DNA from: a bacterium
Lineage (GTDB): Bacteria > UBA4055
Direction of reading: 5' to 3'
Assembly: GCA_029559475.1 (NCBI GenBank)
Contig: JAKQBN010000044.1
Span: 1 to 21,432, forward strand
DNA: 21,432 nucleotides
Position numbers and translations under genes: made by a program. Shown piece by piece: positions 12,878-14,201 of this stretch. The notes beneath the pieces are model-generated. The model was not told where the DNA came from and ran no database searches. It saw only the letters and a list, made by a program, of their open reading frames with translations. Every line of letters begins with the position of its first letter. Within the stretch, counting starts at the first letter, position 1.

Positions 12878-12888
12878 CAGATGAAAAT

Positions 12889-12897
12889 TGTGAATAA
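12889..12897 (-). promoter_or_regulatory. DnaA box (perfect)
   Basis: TGTGAATAA on the plus strand, i.e. TTATTCACA on the minus strand, matches the TTATNCACA consensus fully. It lies 12 bases after the dnaA stop codon. Confidence 0.8.
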
Positions 12898-12911
12898 TGA
12901 AAATACGGCAC

Positions 12912-12920
12912 TTATGAACA
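12912..12920 (+). promoter_or_regulatory. Degenerate DnaA box
   Basis: TTATGAACA matches TTATNCACA at eight of nine positions. The 8-mer TATGAACA recurs at 12935-12942, exactly 22 bp later, where the match to the consensus (GTATGAACA) is seven of nine. Confidence 0.4.
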
Positions 12921-12980
12921 CCGATAAAATAGGGTATGAACAGTTGTGTTTGTATTTGTGTGTTTTTAAAACATCACTAT

Positions 12981-12986
12981 TTGACA
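12981..12986 (+). promoter_or_regulatory. dnaN: Possible -35 element of a dnaN promoter
   Basis: TTGACA is a perfect -35 hexamer 11 bases before the right-hand DnaA box, so DnaA bound there could interfere with it. No good -10 lies 16-18 bases downstream (ACAAAT at 13004-13009 matches three of six). GATAAT at 13038-13043 is an alternative -10 without a good -35. Confidence 0.25.
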
Positions 12987-12996
12987 ACTTGCGGAA

Positions 12997-13005
12997 TTAT
13001 TCACA
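12997..13005 (+). promoter_or_regulatory. DnaA box (perfect)
   Basis: TTATTCACA matches the TTATNCACA consensus fully, in inverted orientation to the box at 12889-12897. It directly precedes the GC patch and AT-rich TAA-repeat tract. Confidence 0.8.
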
Positions 13006-13073
13006 AATCGCCGGTCTTAATAATAATAATGATATTAGATAATTAAAATTATGATTAAAAAAAGGAGCCGCTT

Positions 13074-14201
13074 ATGATCTTCTCAACTTTAAAGTCGAAT
13101 CTGATGGTTCAGTTGTCGCTTATCAGTCCGATACTTCCGGCGCACAGCGCTAAACCTATCACCGAATGTATTATACTCGGTCTTAAGGATAATGAACTTA
13201 CCATTACGGCGACAGATATTTCTGTTACTCTGGTAAACAAAGTGGAAGTTAACGGCGTTGAGGACGGTACCGTAGTAGTTCACGGTAAAAAATTCATAAA
13301 CATAATCAAAAGTCTTCCTGATACTCTTTTAACAGTTAAAAGAGAAGGCGGCCTGGTCAAGATAATTTCGAATAACATAAAATTCGAACTCTCTATAACT
13401 GAAGATTACGAGGATTTTCCGGCTACTCCAAAAAGCCTTTCAGGCAACAATATGATCATAGATTCTTTAAAACTTAAAAACTACATCGAGAAAACGGTTT
13501 TCACGGTTTCACCGGATCAATTGAGAGCTGTTCTCACCGGGGTTCTTTTCTCCTTAAAACTTAATTCACTAACAATGGTGGCGACCGACAGCGTAAGGCT
13601 TGTAAAACTTGAAGATAAATCTGTCAGGTACGAAGGCGAAGACACGGATATGATACTTCCCGCAAAATCGCTTCAGATAGTTTCTAACGCTATCGAGAAG
13701 AATGAAGAATGCAAGATATTCTTCGAGGATAATTATGTCGAATTCAGGATCGGATCGGTCGTTATTTTCTCAAGGCTGATAAACGGAAAATATCCTGCGT
13801 ACCAGGCGATAATACCTGCGAACAACCATCTGAAAGCAAAATTCGACAAACAGACAGCAATTTCTGCTCTCGGAAGGGTTTCACTGGCCTGCAACCCGGT
13901 TACCAGGCTGATAAAATTCAACATGGAACCCGGTCAGCTGCTTATAAATACCGAAGACAGCAATTCGTCATCTAAAGCGGAAGAGAGCATTCCTCTGGAT
14001 TATACGGGAGAAAAACTTCTTATTGGCTTTAACTCCGCAAAGATCATTGAGCTTTTAAAGAACATCAGCACTGAAATGATCCTTATGGAGATCAGCAGCG
14101 GTAAAAAACCGGTAATAATAAAACCGTTCGAATCAGCAGATAATTATGATATGATGATGCTGTTAATGCCGTCTTCAGTCGATAATTCGGGTTCTAATTA
14201 A
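13074..14201 (+). CDS. dnaN: DNA polymerase III beta subunit (sliding clamp)
   Basis: The beta clamp dimer encircles DNA and tethers the replicative polymerase and repair factors. The 375-residue product has the usual length and three-domain clamp layout. Visible family pieces include the first-domain SPILPAHSAKPITECIILG, the NNIKFELSITEDYEDFPATP strand region near residues 98-118, TGVLFSLKLNSLTMVATDSVRL in domain two, and INGKYPAYQAIIP. The C-terminal end MMLLMPSSVDNSGSN extends past the usual MPMR-L-type end. AAGGAG (13062-13067) six bases before ATG 13074 supports the start. It follows the candidate origin and lies 3 nt before recF. Confidence 0.97.
   Translation: MIFSTLKSNLMVQLSLISPILPAHSAKPITECIILGLKDNELTITATDISVTLVNKVEVNGVEDGTVVVHGKKFINIIKSLPDTLLTVKREGGLVKIISNNIKFELSITEDYEDFPATPKSLSGNNMIIDSLKLKNYIEKTVFTVSPDQLRAVLTGVLFSLKLNSLTMVATDSVRLVKLEDKSVRYEGEDTDMILPAKSLQIVSNAIEKNEECKIFFEDNYVEFRIGSVVIFSRLINGKYPAYQAIIPANNHLKAKFDKQTAISALGRVSLACNPVTRLIKFNMEPGQLLINTEDSNSSSKAEESIPLDYTGEKLLIGFNSAKIIELLKNISTEMILMEISSGKKPVIIKPFESADNYDMMMLLMPSSVDNSGSN

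Follow-up and report, generated by a model that had tools for sequence, protein, structure and literature searches.

Gene context of the dnaA-dnaN spacer

The window analysed here is a complete contig (C49) of 21,432 bp from a 2.28-Mb bacterial genome assembled in 83 contigs. Its dnaA gene was the sole full-length DnaA match that a profile search found in the genome, and the alignment of the encoded protein to B. subtilis DnaA (8btg) covers the full length. The spacer downstream of dnaA is flanked on its other side by dnaN, with both products scoring above curated cut-offs, and dnaN is followed by recF, gyrB and a topoisomerase IV A-like gene. We focused on this spacer, the features of which are collected in Table 1. 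The genome is of Candidatus Delongbacteria type, from an uncultured bacterium, and its closest named relatives are Candidatus Delongbacteria metagenome assemblies. We compared the spacer among 12 members of the phylum group, namely this genome and 11 others. The spacer is 196-201 bp long in 10 of the 12 members, and about 219 and 237-240 bp long in the two most distant ones.

Table 1. Features of the dnaA-dnaN region, in positions of the window
Feature	Position	Strand	Remarks
dnaA	11501..12877	+	458 aa, GTG start; TIGR00362, 455.1 bits (cut-off 343.9)
oriC candidate (entire dnaA-dnaN spacer)	12878..13073	+	196 bp
DnaA box A	12889..12897	-	TTATTCACA; points left
DnaA box B	12912..12920	+	TTATGAACA; one change from TTATNCACA
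DnaA box C	12934..12942	+	GTATGAACA; 22 bp past B
DnaA box D	12997..13005	+	TTATTCACA; points right, toward the unwinding element; 63 bp (6 turns) past C
Overlapping tandem box position (+8 from D)	13005..13013	+	AAATCGCCG; degenerate in this genome
GC patch	13009..13014	+	CGCCGG; within the 12-nt gap between box D and the triplets; sequence not conserved
TAA-rich block	13018..13038	+	TAATAATAATAATGATATTAG
Triplets	13018..13032	+	TAA TAA TAA TAA TGA; complement 3'-ATT ATT ATT ATT ACT-5' (5'-TTATTATTATTA-3')
AT-rich continuation of the unwinding element	13033..13060	+	runs to the dnaN ribosome-binding site
dnaN (sliding clamp)	13074..14201	+	375 aa; TIGR00663, 241 bits (cut-off 137.65)

Two further matches to these families were seen. 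A weak second DnaA-family match (28.5 bits) lies in a 260-aa open frame at G000:C37:113068-113379 (L051), possibly an Hda-, DnaC- or IstB-like AAA+ protein. Genome G006 has a second DnaN-like gene (L025, on G006:C38) with 42% identity over 268 residues; it sits on a 3.4-kb contig and could be contamination, or a plasmid or phage clamp.

Phased DnaA boxes in the spacer

The first-pass annotation had described the spacer as a compact origin candidate, with two perfect DnaA boxes facing each other, 117 bp from outer edge to outer edge, and two weaker sites with a TATGAACA core at 22-23 bp spacing. We found the perfect boxes (A and D) at the positions given for them, and the weaker sites are boxes B and C. 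The first bases of the four boxes are spaced 23, 22 and 63 bp apart from A to D, and the B-C and C-D distances place the three rightward boxes on one face of the helix.

The clustering of boxes exceeds chance. At least two exact copies of TTATNCACA were reached in 2 of 2000 dinucleotide shuffles of the 196-bp spacer, and the relaxed form NTATN[CA]ACA, which occurs four times, was matched by none of the 2000. Across the 2.28-Mb genome there are 92 exact sites, a density at which only 0.008 would be expected in 196 bp (P about 3e-5 for the pair observed). When all 92 were listed, boxes A and D were the only exact pair at most 200 bp apart.

The arrangement is also conserved. In ten phylum members the recognisable elements hold a constant offset from the dnaA stop: 11-12 for A, 34-35 for B, 56-57 for C and 119-120 for D. 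Box A keeps its offset with at most one mismatch in 7 of the 11 other members, a TATRAACA-like box B stands at 34/35 in most, and box C reads ATATGAACA at 56/57 in five, with related forms in others. Box D and the triplet block, at mean pairwise identities of 0.764 and 0.793, are the best conserved stretches of the spacer; the C-D interval, at 0.376, keeps its length despite this low identity. Thus the alignment with relatives that had been proposed as a check shows boxes, phasing and the geometry of box, GC patch and triplets to be shared, and both the helical phasing and the small number of boxes stand as features of the group.

GC skew had been proposed as another check. We compared 10-kb flanks to the left and right of the spacer on six contigs, and found that skew rises from left to right on five of them (G000, G005, G011, G001 and G007), with a clean sign change from -0.174 to +0.137 on G001. 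On G002 the 10-kb flanks gave no switch. The skew over the whole 212-kb contig of G007 was set aside: 72 kb of it reads N, and the minimum, about 5 kb from the spacer, is noisy. Skew agrees with an origin at this place, but the fragmentation of the assembly into 83 contigs keeps it from being decisive. Taken together, GC skew, gene context, box statistics and conservation among relatives lead us to conclude that the dnaA-dnaN spacer is very likely the chromosomal oriC of this bacterium, as the annotation had proposed.

A triplet block locked to box D

In the basal unwinding geometry known as BUS, bases are captured from canonical trios, 3'-GAT-5' (CTA on the box strand), that lie opposite the box strand (PMC8287927, PMC10721633). 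The annotation had likened the right-hand box, GC patch and TAA repeats to such a unit, and had left in doubt whether the TAA triplets lay on the right strand. Each of the 12 members has a gap of exactly 12 nt between box D and the first triplet. On the box strand the triplets read TAA, then TAA, TAT or TAC, then YAA-like triplets, mostly TAA or CAA. Their complement in every member is mainly 3'-RTT-5' (5'-TTR-3'), with 3'-ATT-5' or 3'-GTT-5' where 3'-GAT-5' or 3'-AAT-5' would be canonical.

To define the register, we scanned four triplets per member (48 in total, box strand) from 8 to 16 nt past box D. At 12 nt, 43 of the 48 are YAA, all 48 begin with a pyrimidine, 46 have a middle A, and none is a YT triplet. 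A canonical run of 3'-GAT-5' or 3'-RAT-5' trios at 12 nt is absent from all 12 members. The block does lie within the 16 bp of a DnaA box expected of a BUS, and a second, co-oriented box at +8 from D occurs in four relatives (L017, L018, L020 and L023), where it reads TTATCGACA, TTATAAACA, TTATACACG or TTATCAACA. A BUS with a single box is accepted (PMC8287927). Under a looser published rule, which asks for three or more NAN triplets no farther than 16 bp from a box, this spacer passes with a run of eight; 28-49% of shuffled spacers pass too, and L022 fails. In addition, the T-rich strand opposite the box strand has the motif of an E. coli-type ssDUE, TTATTATTATTATTA, and relatives such as L020-L023 carry TTGTT variants there.

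The suggested layout thus holds in its geometry and fails in its words: box, 12 nt and triplets recur in 12 of 12 members, and in none of them is the TAA repeat a canonical Bacillus-type trio. The doubt over strand was well placed, for TAA stands on the TTATTCACA strand and canonical trios on the opposite one.

The triplet pattern in other phyla

We searched 386 genomes, 13 from the phylum group and 373 others, for exact patterns of a box, 12 nt and four triplets. With (YAA)4, five of the 13 phylum genomes matched, at one site each and always in the dnaA-dnaN spacer, and none of the 373 others did; a reversed-pattern control matched three genomes. With the canonical (YTA)4, no phylum genome and 13 of the 373 others matched, and the control gave none. 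These patterns are strict and miss most genomes of both kinds, so that only the contrast between them is meaningful; among the 386 genomes the two were mutually exclusive. An extra match in G012, on C126, was rejected as the origin of that genome, for it adjoins neither dnaA nor dnaN. In canonical BUS origins of other phyla (L068, L081, L084, L087 and L104) the triplets likewise begin 12 nt past the box, but as CTA, CTACTACTA.

A second lineage with the same motif appeared to be G041 (L123), which has TAATAATAATAG after tandem boxes. We discarded it: this is one arm of an inverted repeat, TAATAATAATAG ... CTATTATTATTA, and its relative G188 (L122) has the plain canonical CTACTACTACTG. A third genome of this unrelated family, G323 (L120), also carries trio-like triplets in an inverted repeat, TAGTAGTGATAG ... 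CTACTACTA, and the strand or direction of the trios may have flipped within the family. Separately, in the spacer downstream of dnaA in G050 (L065) a perfect box TTATTCACA is followed by as many as 14 canonical trios in a row, TTACTACTACTACTATTACTATTATTATTACTATTATTATTA, which is unusually long.

A proposed unwinding mechanism and its alternatives

What the spacers display directly (boxes, phasing, 12-nt register, conservation, absence of canonical trios) can be combined with known DnaA biochemistry, from which we take binding, strand choice, melting and helicase loading. In the account we propose, DnaA would bind boxes A, B and C, which are in helical phase, as well as box D to their right, and in some relatives also the second box that overlaps D at +8. 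A DnaA-ATP filament would then grow rightwards from D over the 12-nt gap with its GC patch, melt the AT-rich tract and grip the strand complementary to TTATTCACA, at three bases per protomer. The gripped strand would read 3'-ATT-ATT-RTT-RTT-5', which keeps the canonical position and a purine first base and has T in place of the invariant middle A. The 12 spacers are related, so that they stand for a small number of independent changes. We judge this account as a whole, an oriC with a filament anchored at D and trio-like 3'-RTT-5' triplets on the complementary strand, to have slightly better than an even chance of being correct.

We hypothesized that the DnaA proteins could instead use canonical 5'-TA(A/G)-3' trios on the box strand, so that both strand and direction would be the reverse of those in Bacillus. 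By sequence, either strand could be the one gripped: the box-strand TAA is itself a canonical trio word (3'-AAT-5'), though on the strand opposite to the usual one. Such trios would retain the middle adenine, the most important base of canonical trios, in 46 of 48 triplets, and in an unrelated family (f30) two genomes have TAA TAA TAA TAG or TAG TAG TGA TAG on the box strand right after a box. This arrangement would require the filament either to come in from the right or to bind the opposite strand. We favour the complementary strand because the block is locked to the left-hand box D at the canonical distance in all 12 members, as if read from D, because there is no conserved leftward box on the right of the block, and because the variable position holds only purines there. 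If the box strand were read, that position would be the uncaptured third base and should vary freely, yet on the box strand it is T or C in 48 of 48 triplets. We therefore regard canonical box-strand trios as unlikely.

An ordinary, relaxed BUS read at 11 nt, 3'-RAT-TAT-TRT-TRT-5', has a rather poorer chance. Only its first trio is canonical: in this register the first triplet is YTA, the complement of 3'-RAT-5', in 11 of 12 members, so that a mixed register is possible, and the canonical middle T of the box strand is found in 41 of the 48 triplets. The run of eight NAN triplets in this spacer, equalled by none of 100 shuffles, also speaks for it. Against it, the middle A of the gripped strand is lost in 7 of the 48 triplets, and a pyrimidine comes first on the box strand (a purine on the other) in only 14. 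The NAN runs of nine of the 12 members are equalled by 9-60 of 100 shuffles, and clear canonical origins elsewhere use 12 nt.

Less probable again, box D and the TAATAAT block could be, or could also be, a dnaN promoter tuned by DnaA, the AT tract being a generic unwinding region without a sequence code. One sigma-70-like site with 10 of 12 matches is present about 40 nt upstream of the dnaN start (-35 TTCACA at 13000, -10 AATAAT at 13022-13027). However, chance alone would give 1.8 such sites in the region, relatives have AACAAC, AATAAC or AACGAT at the place of the -10, and a promoter leaves the three-base periodicity over four triplets unexplained. Finally, a DnaA-regulated spacer with replication starting elsewhere would fit the weak GC skew in the group and the one contig that lacks a switch, and is very improbable given the only close pair of exact boxes in the genome, phased boxes and an unwinding block conserved across the phylum group, and the dnaA-dnaN-recF-gyrB context.

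Relation to known origins

Returning to the complementary-strand reading, we suggest more tentatively that the Delongbacteria may use a deviant DnaA-trio, 3'-RTT-5', which would lack the supposedly universal middle adenine, occupy the canonical 12-nt register and link the Bacillus trio with the TTATT/TTGT code of E. coli. This generalization seems to us somewhat less probable than not. Compact dnaA-dnaN origins in which a box directs unwinding are already known; the phylum-wide deviation of the triplets is, to our knowledge, undescribed, and a full-text literature search returned no paper containing both 'DnaA-trio' and 'Delongbacteria'. Pelliciari et al. (2021, PMC8287927) reported that trios are missing in 15% of origins and suspected deviant trios without the middle adenine, for which the spacer offers a concrete, position-locked and phylum-wide candidate.

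The closest known system is the BUS of the B. subtilis oriC (DnaA-box#6/#7, GC, DnaA-trios). It also lies between dnaA and dnaN and has a triplet block and a tandem box, at +8 in several of our relatives. The 12-nt spacer falls inside the published 10-13 bp peak, and in both origins the distal boxes lie on one helical face, a phasing that matters in B. subtilis (PMC6669920). The two differ in the trinucleotide of the reading strand (3'-RTT-5' here, 3'-GAT-5' there) and in the number of boxes, which is smaller here, with the second tandem box degenerate.

E. coli DnaA requires TTATT/TTGT on the T-rich strand of oriC (PMC5742627), and 3'-RTT-5' triplets on the complementary strand would match these words. 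The E. coli DUE, beside box R1, resembles the spacer in its TTATT repeats on the T-rich strand opposite the box strand, and in relatives TTGTT can take the place of TTATT. Nearest the box, the word is TTATTAG in E. coli and five relatives and TTATTAA in this spacer. Read in the same orientation, the E. coli K-12 oriC record has CTAATAA beyond R1; the block begins with CTAATA in seven relatives and with TTAATA in four members, including this genome. The E. coli origin differs in lying away from dnaA, in its IHF site and many boxes, and in a distance from motif to R1 that is not the 12-nt register. The candidate trio suggests that a single triplet code, in different dialects, could underlie unwinding in both E. 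coli and Bacillus, in place of two separate mechanisms.

The Thermotoga maritima oriC (TAG eTrio and TTATT) is likewise compact, with five boxes in mixed orientation and an inter-box phasing that matters (PMC10316083). It differs in its essential motif, three copies of TAG, and in its box consensus, ACCTACCAC.

Residues of DnaA that read trios and boxes

In B. subtilis DnaA, Glu183 and Asn187 read the middle A, and Arg202 and Glu228 read the G (PMC10721633). In the DnaAs of the phylum group, Glu183 is replaced by Asp and Arg202 by Lys in all 12, and the residue at Asn187 is Q, F, I, K or N. Both Glu183 and Asn187 are kept in 34 of 44 DnaAs of other lineages. At the positions of N187 and R202, this genome's DnaA has Gln and Lys, as does that of E. 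coli. The pattern resembles covariation of pocket and motif but is only a lead, and we rejected a simple form of it: altered pockets occur with canonical CTA trios in G070 (Ile187, Ser202), G017 (Val187), G015 (Ser187, Asn202), G030 (Lys202) and G154 (Asp183). A simple residue code is not supported, because these lineages keep canonical trios.

The helix that reads the box also departs from the usual form. Around residue 420 it has GREHSTV in place of GRDHxTV, and at the position of E. coli D433, 10 of the 12 group DnaAs have Glu instead of Asp, a change seen in none of the 44 others. Group origins with the shifted helix residue carry TATGAACA/TATAAACA box variants, and the box specificity of these DnaAs may have shifted too.
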